64,000 nucleotides of DNA from Microbispora catharanthi (lineage in GTDB: Bacteria; Actinomycetota; Actinomycetes; Streptosporangiales; Streptosporangiaceae), in contig NZ_VDMA02000001.1 in NCBI RefSeq assembly GCF_006334915.2, positions 558,001 through 622,000 of the forward strand. The letters are read 5' to 3'. The notes under the pieces were generated by a model that worked only from the letters and a program-made list of their open reading frames with translations, was not told where the DNA came from and did no database searches. Each line of letters starts with the position of its first letter. The first letter of the stretch is position 1. This document shows, piece after piece, positions 3,150 through 58,557 of the stretch. The translations under genes and the position numbers were made by a program.

Positions 3150-6110
3150 TTGAGAGTGCGACACCCAAGGCCACGTCACAGGCTGAGTCGCACGGGTAGA
3201 GGCGTCGCGGGCCTGGTAATGGGTGCGCTTGTCTCGGTCTCGCTCGCAGCGACGCCCTCGCACGCGGCCGAGGAGAAGCTCAACGAGGGTCTGGTGCACC
3301 ACTTCGCCCTCGACGAGACCAGCGGGACGACGCTGGTCAACTCGGGTAGCGCGGGCTCGGCGGCGAACGCCACGCTCGTGCATCCGGAGAAGGCGACCTT
3401 GACCGGCGATGGAGTCAGGTTCAACCCCGACTCCTACGAGAGCGCCCTCGACGGTGCGTACGTGGCACTGCCGAACAACATCACCGCCGGCATGTCGAAC
3501 CTCACCGTCGACTATGACGTGCGGATCGACCCGGCGAACGTCGGCGAGCACCAGATGTGGAGCTTCGGCGCGAAGTCCGGCTCGTGCGACGCCGACACCG
3601 GCGCCCAGGGCTCCATCTTCGCGTCGAACACCCAGCGATTCCGCGTCGCGGTGGGTTCGGCGAACCTCCAGCAGACCCGGGTCCGCATGCCCGAGGGAGC
3701 GTGGACGCACGTCACCTACACCCAGTCGCTGAACGCGAACGGTACGAGCTGGACCGGCAGGCTTTACCTCGACGGCGTGCTGCACGCGACGTCAACGAAC
3801 CTGACCACGCCGCCGTCGGTGAACGCCGCGGGGACCAACTGCAACTTCCTCGCCCGCTCGCAGACGTCGAGCCACTACTCATTCCGCGGAACGCTCCGGG
3901 ACTTCCGGGTCTACGACCGGGCAGTGACCCTCGACGAGACACTCGCCCTGGCGAAAAGGACCGTCTCCGACGGCGTTCGCGCCGACGCCGACGCCATCGA
4001 CCTCGGCCTGACCAGTGCGATCGTACGCGACATCGTTCTGCCCAAGGTGGGCTCCGTTGCAGGCTCGACCATCACGTGGACGAGTTCGGACCCGTCGGTC
4101 GTCGCGGTCTACACCCCGCCGGCCCTCCCCAGCGCACGCAAGGTCGCGGTGACCGGCAAGATCACCCGACCCGCGCAGGGGCAGCCCGACGCGAAGGCCA
4201 CGCTCACGGCGACCGTCCGCAAGGGCGCCCAAGAGGTCACCACACGGGAGATCCCCGTTGTGGTGAAGGCCGAGTTCGACGACGCGCAGGCGGTCGACCG
4301 TGACACGTTCGACCTGACCCTGCACGCCACCGACCACGTACGCGGAAACATCGACCTCCCTGCCGCCGGCGAGTTCGGATCCACGATCACCTGGAAGTCG
4401 AGCACCGACCTCGTCACCCCGAAGGGTGAGGTGACCCGCCCGGCCTTCGGCCGCGCGGATGTCGACGCCGTCCTGACGGCGACCATCACCAAGGGTTCGG
4501 CCTCGAAGACGAAGTCGTTCCCGGTGACCATCACCGCCCTGCCCCGTTCCGAGGAGTACGAGCGGTACTTCCTGGGGTACTTCAAGGGCGAAGGGATCGC
4601 CGACGGCGAGCAGATCATGTTCGCGACGTCCAACGGAAACACCGCTCTGGACTGGACCGGTCTGACCGGAGGCCGGCCGTCGCTCATCTCCCAGCTGGGC
4701 GACCAGGGCCTTCGTGACCCGCACATCGTCCGCTCACCCGACGGCGACACGTTCTACATGATCGCCACCGACCTGAACTGGTACGACCAGGGCGGATACG
4801 CCATCAACGACACCCAGTACATCGAGGTGTTCGAGTCGCACGACCTCGTGCATTGGACTCCTCAGCGACATGTGAAAGTCGCGCCCGACAACGCGGGCAA
4901 CGCCTTCGCACCCGAGTCGCTGTGGGTCGAGGAGATCGGCGCCTACGCCGTCTTCTGGGCACAGTCGCTGTGGAACGACCCCGTGAACCGCACCGGTCAG
5001 GGGAACGCGCAGATGTGGTACACCACGACGCGCGACTTCCAGACGTTCTCCGGTCCCAAGGTCTGGCAGAACCCGGCCCCTCTGTCGCGGATCGACACGA
5101 CCGCGATCCGGGTCGGTGACTACTACTACCGCGTGACCAAGAACGAGGCCGGCAACCAGGGCTCGGACATCTTCTCGGAGAAGCACACCGACTTCCTGGA
5201 CAGCAACATCAACAACTGGACGTTGGTCGCTCCGGCTCTGGGGCGCACGACGTGGGTCGCCAATCAGGGATACGAGGGGCCGATCATCTTCAAGGCCAAC
5301 CCTGGTGACACCTCCTGCCCCGGCCAGTTCTACCTCTGGGGTGACCGGTACACGAACGGTGGTGGATACCAGGCCGCGTGCCACGACAACATCGAGGCTC
5401 CGACCTGGAACGCCAAGGCGATCACGATGACCAACGCGGGCGTCGCCCGTCCGCGTCACGGCACCGTGATCCCGATCACCCTCCGGGAGTGGAACGACAT
5501 CCGCAGGATCCCGAACAGCGACGTCACGACCACCACGGAGGTGGCTGTCGAGCCGTACGCGAGCGAGGCCCAGACGACCACGGCCACCGCCACAGTCAAG
5601 GCAGCTGACGGGTTCGAGACCGGCGGTCAGGTGCGGTTCAGCATCGGCTCGTGGTCGAAGCTCGCCTACCTGAAGGACGGCGCGGCCACGGTCACGCTGC
5701 CGACGGGTCTGCCTGCGGGTACCCGCACGGTCAAGGCCGAGTACCTCGGCTTCGACTACCTGAAGGCGTCGGAAGGTACGGCGTCGTTCGAGGTGCCCTC
5801 CGGCCCGGACGCCGTCAAGGTCCATGCGAAAACCGCGCCGGCGTCGGTTGTCCGCGGGGACACGTTCAAGCTGAACGTGACTGTTGGGCCAGCGGGCGGG
5901 CAGAAGCAGAGCGCTCCGACCCCGACCGGCGAGGTCACCGTCACCTTCGGCGGCTCCGTGCAGGTCGTGCCACTGGCGGACGGCGAGGCCGTCGTCACAC
6001 TGCAGACTGCCGATCTGCAGCCCGGGGCGTACACGGTCCACGTTGCCTACTCCGGCAACCCGACCTACCAGCCCCACGCCGCCGACTACCAGAAGTTGAC
6101 GGTGCGGTAG
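3150..6110 (+). CDS. secreted LamG / Ig-like / GH43-type glycosidase
   Basis: 986 residues starting at a TTG preceded by AAGGAGG with a 5-nt spacer. A Sec signal peptide (arginine-rich start, hydrophobic core, cleavage near SHA/AEE) precedes a LamG/concanavalin-like carbohydrate-binding domain (about 45-270). Two Ig-like beta domains follow (about 275-370 and 370-460), then a five-bladed beta-propeller of GH43 type (about 465-800) and two C-terminal Ig-like repeats (about 800-986). In the propeller, LRDPHIVRSPDGDTFY supplies the likely catalytic aspartate and NAFAPESLW and NQGYEGPIIFK supply candidate acidic residues. GH43 enzymes cleave arabinose- or xylose-containing plant polysaccharides. 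It is monocistronic, followed by a strong hairpin. Substrate is inferred only from family. Confidence 0.85.
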   Translation: MRVRHPRPRHRLSRTGRGVAGLVMGALVSVSLAATPSHAAEEKLNEGLVHHFALDETSGTTLVNSGSAGSAANATLVHPEKATLTGDGVRFNPDSYESALDGAYVALPNNITAGMSNLTVDYDVRIDPANVGEHQMWSFGAKSGSCDADTGAQGSIFASNTQRFRVAVGSANLQQTRVRMPEGAWTHVTYTQSLNANGTSWTGRLYLDGVLHATSTNLTTPPSVNAAGTNCNFLARSQTSSHYSFRGTLRDFRVYDRAVTLDETLALAKRTVSDGVRADADAIDLGLTSAIVRDIVLPKVGSVAGSTITWTSSDPSVVAVYTPPALPSARKVAVTGKITRPAQGQPDAKATLTATVRKGAQEVTTREIPVVVKAEFDDAQAVDRDTFDLTLHATDHVRGNIDLPAAGEFGSTITWKSSTDLVTPKGEVTRPAFGRADVDAVLTATITKGSASKTKSFPVTITALPRSEEYERYFLGYFKGEGIADGEQIMFATSNGNTALDWTGLTGGRPSLISQLGDQGLRDPHIVRSPDGDTFYMIATDLNWYDQGGYAINDTQYIEVFESHDLVHWTPQRHVKVAPDNAGNAFAPESLWVEEIGAYAVFWAQSLWNDPVNRTGQGNAQMWYTTTRDFQTFSGPKVWQNPAPLSRIDTTAIRVGDYYYRVTKNEAGNQGSDIFSEKHTDFLDSNINNWTLVAPALGRTTWVANQGYEGPIIFKANPGDTSCPGQFYLWGDRYTNGGGYQAACHDNIEAPTWNAKAITMTNAGVARPRHGTVIPITLREWNDIRRIPNSDVTTTTEVAVEPYASEAQTTTATATVKAADGFETGGQVRFSIGSWSKLAYLKDGAATVTLPTGLPAGTRTVKAEYLGFDYLKASEGTASFEVPSGPDAVKVHAKTAPASVVRGDTFKLNVTVGPAGGQKQSAPTPTGEVTVTFGGSVQVVPLADGEAVVTLQTADLQPGAYTVHVAYSGNPTYQPHAADYQKLTVR

Positions 6111-53196: not shown

Positions 53197-54780
53197 TCAG
53201 AACGGCCAGCCAGCGTGACGGCCCGCCTCCAGCAGCGGGATCAGCCGGAAGCACGCGTCGGAGAACCCGCCGAACTCATGGCGGTTGCCCGAGCCGGTCG
53301 GCATCGCCGCCGCCTTGTATCCGACGAGGTTGAACCCGTACAGCGGCACATGCGCCGGGACCGCGGTCGTGACCCCGCTCGCGTAGTAGCCCGTCATGGT
53401 CTGCATGTCTGAGAGGATCACCGCCCGGTCGTGCCCCTTCCAGGACCTGCACAGCGCGTCGGCGACTTGCGTGCCGTGGCCGACCTCGCCGATCCGTCCG
53501 CAGAAGCGCTCGACCTCGCGCAGCACCGACGCTCCCGGCCGGATCTCGTGCCGGAACGTGCCGTCTGCGAAGCCCACGAGGTCCACCTGGTCGCCGCGCG
53601 CCGCCAAGGTGACGCCGAACAGCGCAGCGGCCTGGACCGGCGTGACCGTCGACCGCGCGGAGACCGCGCCGGACGACATCGACGCCGACGTGTCGACGAG
53701 CACGAGCGTCCGCCCCGGGAATGAGGGCACGTTCCGGGTGGCCAGGGTCAGCGCCGTGTCCAGCGCGTGGCCCCACCGCAGCGACGGCGCCGTCCGGTAC
53801 GCCGAGTAGAAGCGGAACGGCAGCTGCCGCGACCGCGCGACCTCCTCCGGGTTGGTCAGCTTGTCGATGATCTGACCCGCGAGCTCGTCAGTGATGCCGG
53901 CCTCATCGAAGTTGCGCAGGTTCCGAAGCAGCGCCATGTACCCCATGGAGGGAATGACCGCCGCCCAGGCCTGGGCGTCCATCGGGCTCTGCAGCCAGCC
54001 GGCGAGCGCCTCCCAGGTGATGCCCGCGGCAGCCAGGCGGCGCGGGTCGGCCAGCACGGAGCGTCGCTCCCCAACCGGGATAGAGAGCAGCTCGGCCCGG
54101 TCGCGCAGCATGCGCAGCGACTGCGGGACCGGCTTGTCCCGGCCGTGACGCCGGTCGAGCGCGTGAGCGAACAGGTCGCCCTGCCACAGCCGCTTGTCGC
54201 CGGCCGGGGCGGGGTGGACGAGATCGATGACGTCGCCGAAGCGGAAGCCGCGGGCGTCGCTGTCGTACTTCGCCAGGGACCGCTCCGTGTAGAGCCGCTG
54301 AACGGCGTCGGCGATGCCGCGCTTCACCGGCTTCGGGACGGCCCGGCCATACCGCGACGTCCAGTACGCAAGTGCCTCCCCCGGCTCGTCGGCACGCTGC
54401 AGCACGGAGGCGACCAGCTCGCGGTTGCCGCCCTGCAGTCCAGCCGCCAGGCGGGCCCGTACGGCCTCCAATGCGGCCACGACCGGCGCGGACCGCATGT
54501 TCGCCTCGCCGCGCAGCCAGGGCAGGAACCGGGCCATCCAGTCCCCGTCCTCGACGGCCACCTGGTGGACGAGGGCGCGGAAGCGCCCGTCGCGATCGCC
54601 GGCCTTCTCATAGAAGGTGTCCTCGCCCACCATGTTCGAGACGGCGAGGAGGAACAGCTCGGACTTGGCGTCGCGGATGTAGCCGGGCGCGCCCTCGTGC
54701 GTGCGGCCGGTCGGCTTCGCCTCGGTGGTGACCGGGCTGTCGGTCGCGGCCTGGGTCGTGCCACGGTTGAACTTGGACAT
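53197..54780 (-). CDS. rsr: TROVE-domain protein, Ro60/Rsr orthologue
   Basis: 527 residues from ATG 54780. The N-terminal TROVE domain (about 25-345, HEAT-like ring; GYIRDAKSELFLLAVSNMV, then WMARFLPWLRGEANMRSAPV) is followed by a von Willebrand A domain (about 355-527) with the MIDAS motif LVLVDTSASMSS and GHGTQVADAL. Ro60 proteins bind misfolded RNAs in their ring and Y RNAs on the outer surface; bacterial Rsr works with exoribonucleases in RNA quality control and stress survival. The gene is directly preceded by four Y-RNA-like units on the same strand, which strongly supports the assignment. The likely ribosome-binding site GAAGGGG lies in the 3' arm of a hairpin. Confidence 0.93.
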   Translation of the reverse strand: MSKFNRGTTQAATDSPVTTEAKPTGRTHEGAPGYIRDAKSELFLLAVSNMVGEDTFYEKAGDRDGRFRALVHQVAVEDGDWMARFLPWLRGEANMRSAPVVAALEAVRARLAAGLQGGNRELVASVLQRADEPGEALAYWTSRYGRAVPKPVKRGIADAVQRLYTERSLAKYDSDARGFRFGDVIDLVHPAPAGDKRLWQGDLFAHALDRRHGRDKPVPQSLRMLRDRAELLSIPVGERRSVLADPRRLAAAGITWEALAGWLQSPMDAQAWAAVIPSMGYMALLRNLRNFDEAGITDELAGQIIDKLTNPEEVARSRQLPFRFYSAYRTAPSLRWGHALDTALTLATRNVPSFPGRTLVLVDTSASMSSGAVSARSTVTPVQAAALFGVTLAARGDQVDLVGFADGTFRHEIRPGASVLREVERFCGRIGEVGHGTQVADALCRSWKGHDRAVILSDMQTMTGYYASGVTTAVPAHVPLYGFNLVGYKAAAMPTGSGNRHEFGGFSDACFRLIPLLEAGRHAGWPF

Positions 54781-54785
54781 GAAAA

Positions 54786-54814
54786 CGGGCCCCTTCCGCG
54801 ATGGGAGGAGCCCG
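54786..54814 (-). terminator. terminator/attenuator hairpin overlapping the TROVE ribosome-binding site
   Basis: On the minus strand, CGGGCTCCTCCC (54814-54803) pairs with GGAAGGGGCCCG (54797-54786) around loop ATCGC and is followed directly by TTTTC and then the TROVE ATG at 54780. The 3' arm contains the GAAGGGG ribosome-binding site, so folding would both end the upstream RNA and hide the start site. Confidence 0.6.
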
Positions 54815-54826
54815 CGTCCAGAGACC

Positions 54827-54953
54827 GTGCCCGAGATCAAGTCGGTGAAGCCACGTGGTGCTCTGCCAACTGAGCTACGGAGACCGAAGCCCCCGACTGG
54901 ACTCGAACCAGTGACAACCCCATTAACAGTGGAAGTAGGCCTCGCCTGCGCAC
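54827..54953 (-). ncRNA. yrlA: Y-RNA-like unit D with tRNA mimic (YrlA-like)
   Basis: Read on the minus strand: GTGC (54953-54950) pairs with GCAC (54830-54827). Inner stem GGCGAGGCC (54946-54938) pairs with GGCTTCACC (54852-54844) with one A/C mismatch; then CTACTTC. The enclosed mimic is a T-arm ACTGG/CCAGT with loop TTCGAGT (54912-54896). A 7-bp acceptor stem (54895-54889 with 54884-54878) closed by a TTCG tetraloop follows, then a canonical D-arm TAGCTCAGTTGGCAGAGCA (54877-54859). TTGATCTCGG (54840-54831) ends the unit. The order T-arm, acceptor, D-arm is a circularly permuted tRNA, as in known bacterial Y RNAs. Confidence 0.85.
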
Positions 54954-54971
54954 CGAGCACGCTCTGAAGTT

Positions 54972-55078
54972 GTGTTCCCCCCGAGATCAAGGTGACTGCG
55001 GCTTGCCCGCCAATCGGGCGACAGCCCCAGACGGGGGCTGAAAGGAATCGAACCTCGAAGTAACCGCTGTCGGCGCAC
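54972..55078 (-). ncRNA. yrlA: Y-RNA-like unit C with tRNA mimic
   Basis: Inner stem GAC-A-GCGG (55071-55064) pairs with CCGC-A-GTC (55001-54994) with an A/A mismatch; GGTTACTTC follows the 5' strand. T-arm GAGG/CCTT with loop TTCGATT (55056-55042), perfect 7-bp acceptor stem CAGCCCC/GGGGCTG closed by CGTCT (55040-55022), D-arm GCCCG/CGGGC enclosing ATTGG (55019-55005). TTGATCTCGG at 54990-54981. The outer GTGC closes less well here (GAACAC on the 3' side). Confidence 0.8.
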
Positions 55079-55098
55079 CGGGAGGTGCATATGAAGTT

Positions 55099-55231
55099 GT
55101 GCCCCCCGAGATCAAATTCGGCGACGGGGTACGTAAGCGTCTTAGGCCACTAGACGACGCCGAACGAGTCGGCGGCGGGATTCGAACCCGCGTTGCTCCT
55201 TTGGAAGAGGAAGTAGCCGTTGCCTTCGCAC
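55099..55231 (-). ncRNA. yrlA: Y-RNA-like unit B with tRNA mimic
   Basis: Outer GTGC (55231-55228) pairs with GCAC (55102-55099). Inner stem GGC-A-ACGG (55224-55217) pairs with CCGT-C-GCC (55127-55120), again with a mismatch after three pairs; then CTACTTCC. T-arm GCGGG/CCCGC with loop TTCGAAT (55191-55175), acceptor CGCCGA/TCGGCG closed by CTCGT (55174-55158), D-arm CGTC/GACG with loop TAGTGGCCTAA (55156-55138). TTGATCTCGG at 55115-55106. A hairpin GCACC-TCCC-GGTGC joins this unit to each neighbour. Confidence 0.85.
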
Positions 55232-55378
55232 CGGGAGGTGCATATCAAGTTGTGCGCTCCAGAGGTCGGGGACGGCGACCGGCGTAGTTTCACCCAAAGA
55301 AGTAGCCGGAGCCTTCGCACCTGGAACACCAGGAAGCCTAGCCATCTCCTGCGCCTCGCCGCTTCCCATTTTTGCCAT
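55142..55378 (-). CDS. possible short leader ORF overlapping Y-RNA units A and B
   Basis: ATG 55378 has CGGAG 5-6 nt upstream and opens MAKMGSGEAQEMARLPGVPG for 78 codons, running through unit A and into unit B. The latter half is translated structural RNA and is unlikely to be selected as protein. It could be a translated leader whose ribosomes affect folding or processing of the array, or chance. Confidence 0.25.
   Translation of the reverse strand: MAKMGSGEAQEMARLPGVPGAKAPATSLGETTPVAVPDLWSAQLDMHLPVRRQRLLPLPKEQRGFESRRRLVRRRLVA
55252..55320 (-). ncRNA. minimal Y-RNA-like unit A, no tRNA mimic
   Basis: Its first 23 bases match unit B at 21 positions (GTGCGAAGGC-NN-CGGCTACTTC). GTGC (55320-55317) pairs with GCAC (55255-55252), and GGC-T-CCGG (55313-55306) pairs with CCGG-TC-GCC (55282-55274), preserving the asymmetric mismatch. 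Only a ~23-nt loop is enclosed, so the T-arm/acceptor/D-arm module is absent. It is the promoter-proximal unit and is preceded by a CTGG-TGTT-CCAG hairpin (55321-55332). Confidence 0.65.
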
Positions 55379-55785
55379 GCGAACTCCGTGCACCCGGGAA
55401 GCATTGTCCGGATTTGTATCGCACAGGATGGGAGCCAGCCGGACATGCAGGAACGCTGAGAAACCGGCCATATGAGCGACGCGTCATCAATCCAACGCCC
55501 CCAGCAACAGGAGTCACGCAGGTGGAACTCAGGTCGAATCGGTCCGGTCCCGTCCGTGTCGGCGCCAGTAGGGGCGACCAGCGCTGGTGGCGGGCGCAGT
55601 TCGATGAGTTGATGCAGTTGGTGGCGGGCCGGTTCGCCCGGGCGGCGATGTCTCGGCGCGGCTGGGCCAGTGCGGTCGTGATGGCCGCTGCCCCGACCGC
55701 CGTCCTCGTACAGCGCGATGTGCGCGGCGGCTGCGTGAAGAGGCCCGCGGACATCGCCGATCCGGGCCTCTTCGGGTCTGGCAGG
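55333..55785. promoter_or_regulatory. upstream region of the Y-RNA/TROVE transcript
   Basis: Between unit A and the unknown gene ending at 55786 no convincing gene is seen. The promoter for the leftward Y-RNA/TROVE transcript should lie here (about 55380-55480); I cannot identify convincing -35/-10 boxes. Confidence 0.35.
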
Positions 55786-57315: not shown

Positions 57316-58557
57316 CTACCGCAGTTGGTCGCGGCGGCGGGTCAGGTAGGCGGTCTCGGCGGTGTTGCCTGCCAGGTCGATGGCCCGGTCGTAGGCCGCG
57401 CGCGACTGCCGGCTGTGGCCCAGCCGGCGCAGCAGGTCGGCGCGGGTGGCGTGGTAGGCGTGATAGCCGGCCAACTTGTGCTCAAGACGGTCGAGGGCCG
57501 CCAGTGCCACCTCCGGCCCGTCGAGCTCGGCGACCGCGATGGCCCGGTTGAGGGCGATGATCGGCGAGGAGTCGAGGCGGACGAGCTGGTCGTAGAGGGC
57601 GAGGACCTGCGACCAGTCGGTGTCGCGCATGTCGCGGGCGGAGGTGTGCACCGCGTTGATCGCCGCGAGGATCTGGTAGCGACCCGGAGCCACCCCGGCA
57701 GCGGCAGCGGCCAGGCGCTCGCGCACCAGCCGATGACCCTCGGCGATCAGTTCCATGTCCCAGGCGCCGCGGTCCTGCTCCGCTAGGGGGACCAGTTCGC
57801 CGCTGGCCGAGACCCGGGCGGGGCGGCGGGCCTCGATGAGCAGCATCAGCGCCAGCAGGCCGGCGACCTCACCGTCGTCCGGCAGGAGGGCACGGATCAG
57901 GCGGGTGAGCCGGATCGCCTCGATGGTCAGCTCGTGTCGTACGGGATCGGTGTCGGGGCCGCTGGCCAGGTAGCCCTCGTTGAAGACGAGGAACAGGACG
58001 GCCAGGACGCCGGCGATACGAGCCGGCAGATCGTCGGCGGACGGCATCCGATAGGGGATGCGAGCCGCTTTGATCTTTGCCTTCGCGCGGGTGATGCGCT
58101 GCCCCATGGCGCTCTCGGCCACCAGGAAGGCGCGGGCGATCTCGGGCATGGTCAGGCCGGCGACCATACGCAGCGTCAATGCCACGCGCGCTTCCATCGC
58201 CAGCGCCGGGTGACAGCAGGTGAAGATCAGCCGGAGCCGGTCGTCGTCGATGGCGCCGAGAGGCTCGGGCGGGATGTTGTCGTGCAGCATCTGAGCCTCC
58301 TTGTGCTTGTCGTCGCGTTTGTTCTCGCGCCGGATCCGGTCGATGGCTTTGCGGTTCGCGGTGGTGGTCAGCCAGGCGCCCGGGTTGGGGGGTACGCCGT
58401 CGGCCCGCCACCGCTCGACGGCGGTTGCGAACGCCTCGGCCGCCGCCTCCTCGGCGATGTCGAGGTCACCGAAGCGCCTGGTCAGGGAGGCGACCACCCG
58501 TGCCCACTCCTCATGGTGAGCCTGGGTGATCGCCTCACGGACGTCGATCCTGTTCAC
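57316..58557 (-). CDS. ECF42-type RNA polymerase sigma factor
   Basis: 413 residues. Region 2 (FGDLDIAEEAAAEAFATAVE), region 4 (RMVAGLTMPEIARAFLVAES) and a long C-terminal TPR-like extension (about 185-413; LIRALLPDDGEVAGLLALML, ALNRAIAVAEL). This architecture defines ECF42, whose C-terminal extension is needed for activity and which is encoded next to DGPF/YCII proteins. The start overlaps the stop of the upstream DGPF gene (ATGA). No anti-sigma gene is present, as usual for the group. Confidence 0.92.
   Translation of the reverse strand: MNRIDVREAITQAHHEEWARVVASLTRRFGDLDIAEEAAAEAFATAVERWRADGVPPNPGAWLTTTANRKAIDRIRRENKRDDKHKEAQMLHDNIPPEPLGAIDDDRLRLIFTCCHPALAMEARVALTLRMVAGLTMPEIARAFLVAESAMGQRITRAKAKIKAARIPYRMPSADDLPARIAGVLAVLFLVFNEGYLASGPDTDPVRHELTIEAIRLTRLIRALLPDDGEVAGLLALMLLIEARRPARVSASGELVPLAEQDRGAWDMELIAEGHRLVRERLAAAAAGVAPGRYQILAAINAVHTSARDMRDTDWSQVLALYDQLVRLDSSPIIALNRAIAVAELDGPEVALAALDRLEHKLAGYHAYHATRADLLRRLGHSRQSRAAYDRAIDLAGNTAETAYLTRRRDQLR

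Follow-up and report, generated by a model that had tools for sequence, protein, structure and literature searches.

Anticodon arms on permuted tRNA mimics in bacterial Y RNA arrays beside a TROVE/Rsr gene of Microbispora catharanthi and in related loci

We found that two of the four Y RNA-like units encoded ahead of a TROVE/Rsr (Ro60-family) gene in Microbispora catharanthi carry a full anticodon arm on a circularly permuted tRNA mimic, and that arms of this kind, with a conserved framework and varying anticodons, recur in relatives and at viral loci. The anticodon arm on bacterial Y RNAs appears to be the new part. Multi-unit arrays, which the initial annotation of this DNA had presented as unusual, are ordinary among relatives, and the circular permutation of the Y RNA tRNA module has been published (in the accessible portion of PMC11472068). 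We propose that such Y RNAs, bound by Rsr, may act as decoys or bait for proteins recognizing anticodon arms, a reading to which we assign a probability of roughly 40%.

The window, that is, the whole stretch of 64,000 nucleotides analyzed here, corresponds to positions 558001-622000 of its contig in a genome of 9.25 Mb. The product of the TROVE gene (Table 1) matched Pfam TROVE (PF05731) with 54.8 bits (cut-off 23), with a best stretch of just 61 residues, and VWA_2 with 26.2 bits, slightly under the cut-off of 27, so that it shows the TROVE plus VWA-like domain composition of a Ro60/Rsr protein; NCBIfam RNA-bind_Rsr gave 24.6 bits, far under its cut-off of 900. By sequence, the closest solved structures were 9l5y and 9kop, both deposited as "TROVE domain-containing protein" (E = 1.2e-26), and the PDB Rsr structure 2nvo was matched at E = 4.5e-5, in agreement with the earlier placement of the array ahead of a TROVE/Ro60 gene. 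The best named relatives of the gene were in Microbispora rosea and M. hainanensis (92-93% protein identity), and a third Microbispora had 82%. At the M. hainanensis locus, the TROVE gene is immediately preceded by what appears by eye to be the tail of a group II intron maturase ORF (L033 1398-1998), and no Y RNA unit was found in the 2 kb available there.

The array is located upstream of the TROVE gene and co-directional with it, 42 nt separating the R1 match (see below) of unit D from the gene start; the units are thus encoded beside a Rsr/Ro60 gene, as in the YrlA class. A scan of nine proteins beside the array, two of these entries being the TROVE protein itself, recognized neither an rtcB nor a known nuclease gene; three RtcB-like loci were located on other contigs of the genome. 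A search of 54700-55700 for sigma-70-type promoters gave no match, which is a weak guide for an actinomycete. An ECF-type sigma factor gene (TIGR02937, 44.7 bits; 57316-58557, minus strand) lies upstream of the array, beyond a TetR-family gene.

On the minus strand, units A, B, C, and D follow one another consecutively from 55331 to 54823, and all four units described in the initial annotation were located (Table 1). Every unit starts with an outer stem that includes GGTGCG, and has an inner Y stem. The conserved strands of the Y stem are GGUGCG...ACUUC and, in B, C, and D, UUGAUCUCGG; the 3' end of these three units is TTGATCTCGG. As read on the sequence, the outer stems of A, of B and C, and of D keep their pairing with different letters. 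The Y stems of all four units would be expected, by homology, to bind Rsr. The linkers between the units (window 54960-55250) have CACAACTT(C/G)A... in common, where the leader might be processed, and similar linkers occur in relatives.

Table 1. Features of the array and of the neighboring TROVE gene, in window coordinates
Feature	Coordinates	Strand	Basis
TROVE/Rsr (Ro60-family) protein, 527 aa, TROVE + VWA-like	53197..54780	-	Pfam, PDB matches
Y RNA unit A, short, without T, acceptor, and D arms	55252..55331	-	R1 34.1 bits across whole model; GGTGCG...ACTTC
Unit A anticodon-like hairpin UUC-UUUGGGU-GAA, 3 bp	55289..55301	-	Loop equals reference-set tRNA-Pro(UGG) loop
Y RNA unit B, complete permuted tRNA mimic	55098..55242	-	R1 123.1 bits (in training set); Rfam YrlA 25.0 bits, below gathering score
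Unit B anticodon arm UUCCU-CUUCCAA-AGGAG; Gly anticodon UCC, 55203-55205	55196..55212	-	Folds, pairing control
Unit B T-arm	55175..55191	-	Sequence reading, 31-unit alignment
Unit B acceptor stem, closed by CUCGU loop	55158..55174	-	Sequence reading, fold
Unit B D-arm; by eye, one base off own-genome tRNA-Glu(CUC) D-arm	55139..55155	-	
Y RNA unit C, permuted mimic lacking the anticodon arm	54973..55089	-	R1 58.4 bits; covariation with 13 relatives
Unit C T-arm	55041..55057	-	
Unit C acceptor stem, short closing loop	55022..55040	-	Covariation
Unit C D-arm	55005..55019	-	
Y RNA unit D, complete permuted tRNA mimic	54823..54964	-	R1 130.5 bits (in training set); Rfam YrlA 36.6 bits (E 2.8e-6), below gathering score
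Unit D anticodon arm UUCCA-CUGUUAA-UGGGG; Asn anticodon GUU, 54925-54927	54918..54934	-	ARAGORN, pairing control
Unit D T-arm	54896..54912	-	
Unit D acceptor stem, closed by UUCG loop	54878..54895	-	
Unit D D-arm	54860..54875	-	

The anatomy of the arrays with anticodon arms is well supported by sequence comparison. The initial annotation had described a T-arm, a looped acceptor stem, and a D-arm enclosed in B, C, and D; these are seen in the sequence and supported by covariation, and the module is absent in unit A. As a full description, the three arms suffice for unit C, which consists of the D/T/acceptor module only, and fall short for B and D, whose anticodon arm was missed. This arm has 5 bp and a 7-nt loop and is placed between the Y stem and the T-arm. 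The parts of B and D follow in the order anticodon arm, variable loop (4 nt in B, 5 nt in D), T-arm, acceptor 3' strand, short loop, acceptor 5' strand, bases 8-9, and D-arm. Because the anticodon arm and a variable loop of normal length are also present, B and D amount to complete four-arm class I tRNAs, opened between positions 26 and 27 and rejoined via the acceptor, with no CCA. Unit B combines a nearly tRNA-Glu-like D-arm with a Gly(UCC) loop, so that body and anticodon are decoupled.

Minimum-energy folds of unit B contained 4/5 pairs of the arm in one case and 5/5 in another, and those of unit D alone did not form it. Folding energy by itself gave no structure signal (z-scores A -0.68, B -1.41, C -0.39, D -0.79), and single-unit minimum-free-energy folding was uninformative as a structure test. 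ARAGORN called part of unit D tRNA-Asn(GTT), at 54888-54960; a genuine tRNA-Asn was ruled out there, since the anticodon and T-arm belong to unit D and the 5' end falls inside the Y stem. It also called several units of relatives tRNAs with the same anticodon as we read, namely Lys(ttt) at L034, Pro(cgg) at L036, Asp(gtc) at L110, Ser(gct) at L114, and Arg(gcg) at L137. A T-box-like reading was ruled out because there is no CCA end.

To examine the arm across relatives, we aligned 31 units, 29 from 25 named loci together with B and D of the window, on one structure of 36 pairs. In this alignment, 95.1% of cells pair, compared with 80.3 ± 0.7% after shuffling (none of 500 as high) and 38-52% with partners slid, and two-sided changes occur in 23 of the 36 pairs. 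The long stem formed by the 5' and 3' ends in the YrlA class is likewise present, with 100% of outer-stem and 89.9% of inner-stem cells paired. For the unit C type, 8 of 29 predicted pairs showed two-sided changes among 14 sequences (C and 13 relatives). The compensatory divergence in the stems that the initial annotation had read within the array is thus borne out by the comparison with relatives that it had suggested. Of the two inner pairs of the arm, one was CG in 15 units, GC in 12, and AU in 1, and the other was AU in 21, UA in 6, and CG in 1, with three unpaired at each position. The outer arm pairs are less informative because UUC belongs to the conserved ACUUC, which is kept also in arm-less units. 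In some aligned units, the start of the arm is shifted one base later.

A covariance model, R1, was built from the 31-unit alignment, so that its scores for B and D are by construction, whereas those for A and C are independent. Rfam YrlA (RF02553), which had been proposed earlier for a search of the minus strand, did match D and B, with both scores under the gathering score of 69 bits (Table 1), and gave no match above gathering in 7 related loci; the Rfam model appears to miss this actinobacterial branch. The R1 search gave 148 matches up to E 1 in 44 named loci plus the window and 99 matches up to E 0.01 in 52 regions fetched after a class-wide search. We typed 163 matches and parsed 157, of which 76 had an arm under a rule based on pairing and spacing only; one doubtful case (L129) was dropped, leaving 75. 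By eye, the remaining 81 parsed matches were a mixture of the unit C type, further mimics without the arm, mimics of class II (Leu-like, having a long variable arm), and tandem tRNA genes. Four regions from other members of the class (L119, L123, L131, and L141) had long variable arms and no anticodon arm, and held either permuted mimics of class II (Leu-like) or junctions of tandem tRNA genes.

An arm of at least 4/5 pairs was present in 75 of the 80 parsed units with fitting ACTTC-to-T-arm spacing, compared with 15.5 ± 3.6 (maximum 28) when the interval after ACTTC was shuffled 500 times, and all 5 pairs were present in 60 of the 80, compared with 2.1 ± 1.4. Acceptance of the 75 required 4 pairs and did not require variety of pair types: pair 30-40 was CG in 49, GC in 21, UA in 4, and AU in 1, and pair 31-39 was AU in 49, UA in 15, CG in 5, GC in 5, and unpaired in one.

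The loops of these 75 arms followed tRNA-like rules, with U33 in 71, a purine at 37 in 71, A38 in 73, A34 in 3, and no stop anticodon. The rule "G37 after G36, else A37" held in 66 of the 75, compared with 43.8 ± 3.2 when loop columns were shuffled; it also held in 29 of 37 distinct loops (17.1 ± 2.6 shuffled) and in 39 of the 44 outside the R1 training set (25.1 ± 2.5). Since the shuffling keeps column composition, this signal is not an effect of the model. The loop was identical to a tRNA loop of the same genome in 45 of 82 units, compared with 19.0 ± 3.0, and C37 occurred in 4 of the 82. The further claim that the anticodons match real tRNAs beyond base composition was weak (76/82, P = 0.045; 38/42 distinct loops, P = 0.07) and was set aside. 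At the level of sequence, these results show the anticodon arm to be a scaffold under constraint, with a covarying stem, U33, A38, and a purine at 37 that fits base 36, in which positions 34-36 vary between species.

Short units of the unit A type displayed a smaller version of this element. The loop in unit A is UUUGGGU, compared with UUUGGGA in the tRNA-Pro(UGG) of its own genome. Of 54 short units, 37 had a hairpin in which 3-5 pairs close a loop of 7 bases, and 17 had no fitting hairpin; by eye, two of these 17 (L045 and L049) could show UCA, a stop anticodon. Among the 37 loops, U33 was present in 35 and A34 in none, and A38, near constant in the long units, in only 17. The 36-37 rule held in 29 of the 37 (20.6 ± 2.3 shuffled). 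Against a reference of 79 tRNA loops, drawn from the own genome as well as from two tRNA arrays, 16 of the 37 (9 distinct) were exact real tRNA anticodon loops, compared with 4.3 ± 1.7 with columns shuffled and 0.5 with letters shuffled.

We further compared like units in seven groups (Planotetraspora first, Planotetraspora last, Lentzea, Saccharothrix, g66, which is probably Streptomyces, a Microbispora pair, and a set sharing the body of unit B). Of the comparisons, 33-72% showed a difference in the anticodon, compared with 7-17% for the remainder of the unit and 0-10% for the anticodon stem. In four Planotetraspora species, for example, the first unit had GCA, UUC, GCA, and CUC, and the last had UUU, GGG, CGG, and GGG, both GGG loops with A33. 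The acceptor closing loop differed in 22-64% in the six groups of four or more, and at 0/5 sites in the Microbispora pair. Because it changes about as fast as the anticodon, relaxed constraint can explain the variation, and diversifying selection is unsupported. We also considered whether an array avoids repeating an anticodon: in 31 arrays with at least two loops, 0 of 41 pairs shared one, which was not significant (1.2 expected, P = 0.28).

The initial annotation had regarded an array with three different mimics as unusual. The mimics do differ, but arrays as such are common, as at least 40 of 45 loci had two or more units upstream (four in 9, three in 13, two in 18, one in 3, and none in 2, all lower bounds). 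A full-length R1 match at E ≤ 1e-9 was found in 48 of 394 genomes of the class (rows counted by hand), and in 7 of 296 genomes of a phylum-wide draw, all from the same class. The larger count of 191 of the 394 genomes with any R1 match was rejected as a prevalence because many of these matches, over model positions 31-106, are tandem tRNA genes. A TROVE match was present in 39 of the 52 fetched regions, including a weak one at L151. Among those with no TROVE match, L144 has an ORF that by eye resembles a divergent TROVE gene, L134 and L119 are possibly tandem tRNA genes, and L124 holds a strong unit (4064-4206, minus strand, 107.1 bits, loop CUGCAAA) within the 7.2 kb fetched.

Similar units were also associated with phages. 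R1 matches lay upstream of the Ro genes of VanLee (104.4 bits), a Rhodococcus plasmid (86.7), Quantum (66.9), and BRock (61.2), and 11 of 13 viral-contig loci with a TROVE gene, two of them near-identical, had an R1 match of at least 88 bits. Five viral loci (L233, L237, L238, L242, and L244) showed an arm of at least 4 pairs with a CUGUUAA or UUUGGGA loop. Many tRNA genes flank the Ro gene on both sides in four of eight phage records (GiJojo, Atuin, BRock, and pSt2308), and among 11 loci examined, two from Micromonosporaceae have tRNA gene arrays just upstream of the Y RNAs and TROVE gene (L043 734-3509, 30 genes; L062 223-3541, 29 genes), which resembles the layout in the phages. Three deposited phage tRNA features just upstream of Ro genes, tRNA-Arg(cct) at L162 3769-3843, tRNA-Arg(tct) at L166 3704-3775, and tRNA-Pro(tgg) at L168 3745-3835, overlap Y RNA matches of 52.1, 104.4, and 34.7 bits, respectively, and are probably misannotated Y RNAs. 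This suggests that some phage or bacterial "tRNA" genes deposited beside Ro genes are Y RNAs.

R1 matches true tandem tRNA genes over the junction, from the anticodon arm to the acceptor 3' strand of one gene and from the acceptor 5' strand to the D-arm of the next. Capture of a tandem tRNA junction would yield the permutation in one step. A tandem-repeat origin has been proposed for permuted tRNA genes of algae (in the available text of PMC3978253).

The function that we favor for these arms is that of a decoy. Rsr would hold a small set of Y RNAs with different anticodon loops on bodies unfit for charging or translation. The targets would most likely be ribonucleases that act on anticodon loops and belong to toxin-antitoxin or phage-conflict systems, and either the captured protein or the cleaved RNA would be delivered to the Rsr ring and its nuclease partner. 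As three units of the window appear to display different anticodon loops, the cell may hold decoy anticodons on Ro60. In favor of this reading, we count the pairing of the arm, the loop rules, the identity with own tRNA loops, the anticodon variation, the actinophage Ro genes and tRNA arrays, and the presence of RtcB in the genome; against it, we count arm-less unit C and many other such units, the fold of D without the arm, the hairpin of only 3 pairs in unit A, and a rate of anticodon change that fits relaxed constraint. The anticodon loops of phage tRNAs are predicted to allow escape from anticodon nucleases (in the accessible part of PMC10264068), and in Salmonella, competitive inhibition of an anticodon nuclease by YrlA has been raised as a possibility (in the available sections of PMC7790460). 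As no YrlA fragments appeared there when tRNAs were cut, the arm-less YrlA of Salmonella is not a substrate of that nuclease.

A broader version of this proposal, which we offer only tentatively, is that actinobacteria and their phages keep a small, fast-changing panel of anticodon loops on Ro60, carried either by permuted tRNAs that are not charged or by Y stems alone. The panel would serve as decoys or sensors for enzymes that attack particular tRNAs and, if real, would add a ribonucleoprotein component to the arms race over tRNA cleavage. A Y RNA with a defined, species-specific anticodon makes its role testable via a three-base swap.

One possible, if doubtful, alternative is ordinary YrlA function, in which the tRNA-like module serves to link Rsr with PNPase or to gate the ring. 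The arm would then be left over from the tRNA gene that became the module, through capture of a junction between tandem tRNA genes, and its anticodon would drift neutrally. The R1 matches to tandem tRNA junctions would provide a natural source of the permutation, the anticodon changes at a rate like that of the acceptor loop, and unit C manages without the arm. However, drift predicts neither the 36-37 rule nor the kept U33 and A38, and it leaves unexplained why anticodon-like hairpins occur in units without any other tRNA arm.

Another possibility, which we consider unlikely, is that the arms are substrates or sponges for anticodon-loop tRNA-modification enzymes (TrmD at G36G37; t6A and i6A enzymes at A37), with Y RNA stability or activity reporting the modification state. 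The 36-37 rule is a requirement of TrmD and of the t6A and i6A enzymes, to which the loops conform, and all loops of nine like units of the g66 group have U36 and A37. YrlA is, moreover, modified by DusA and TruB (in the part of PMC8394870 available). This explanation is opposed by the existence of the C37 units, and the wide variation of the anticodon is left unexplained by it.

It is less likely still that the array is a cis-acting leader controlling the Rsr gene, for example by being cut at an anticodon loop. The position directly upstream in the same direction and the recurrence of TROVE matches in the fetched regions would fit such a leader. Against it, no terminator-like site was found on the minus strand within 54700-55700, a unit of phage Atuin (L163 6048-6196, 63.6 bits) is located downstream of the Ro gene, and Y RNAs elsewhere act in trans. 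Finally, although all four arms are present in permuted order, a role as precursor of a functional tRNA, like that of the permuted tRNA genes of algae, is hardly credible because loops of 4-5 nt join the acceptor strands of B and D with no room for a CCA-ended acceptor, and tRNA genes of the own genome already cover both anticodons (UCC and GUU).

Among known systems, the closest is the YrlA-type Y RNA (RF02553; Salmonella YrlA, PDB 6CU1), which shares the Y stem and the permuted module of T-arm, closed acceptor, and D-arm beside rsr. Units B and D differ from YrlA as described in adding a full anticodon arm and a variable loop, whereas unit C, without the arm, conforms to it; the Rfam YrlA structure line likewise has no anticodon hairpin. 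Y RNAs without a tRNA module we take to be the YrlB type. Unit A resembles them in having a Y stem only, and differs in that, like many of its relatives, it shows a small hairpin similar to an anticodon arm. In YrlA, the basal stem tethers Rsr and the module resembles the D, T, and acceptor arms (according to the accessible part of PMC8394870). Among the matches listed in a full-text literature search, whose coverage left out the primary Y RNA papers and whose texts were partly available, no anticodon arm in a bacterial Y RNA was described.

Circularly permuted tRNA genes of algae and archaea share the order in which the 3' half of the tRNA precedes the 5' half. The algal permuted tRNAs mature via a circular intermediate (in the available text of PMC3978253), whereas the acceptor loop of the present units leaves them without a CCA end. 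Actinophage tRNA arrays show a similar variation of the anticodon loop (in the accessible part of PMC10264068), and some phage Ro genes and Y RNAs are located in or beside such arrays. The arrays consist of true tRNAs, whereas the units of the window are Y RNAs without a chargeable CCA end.
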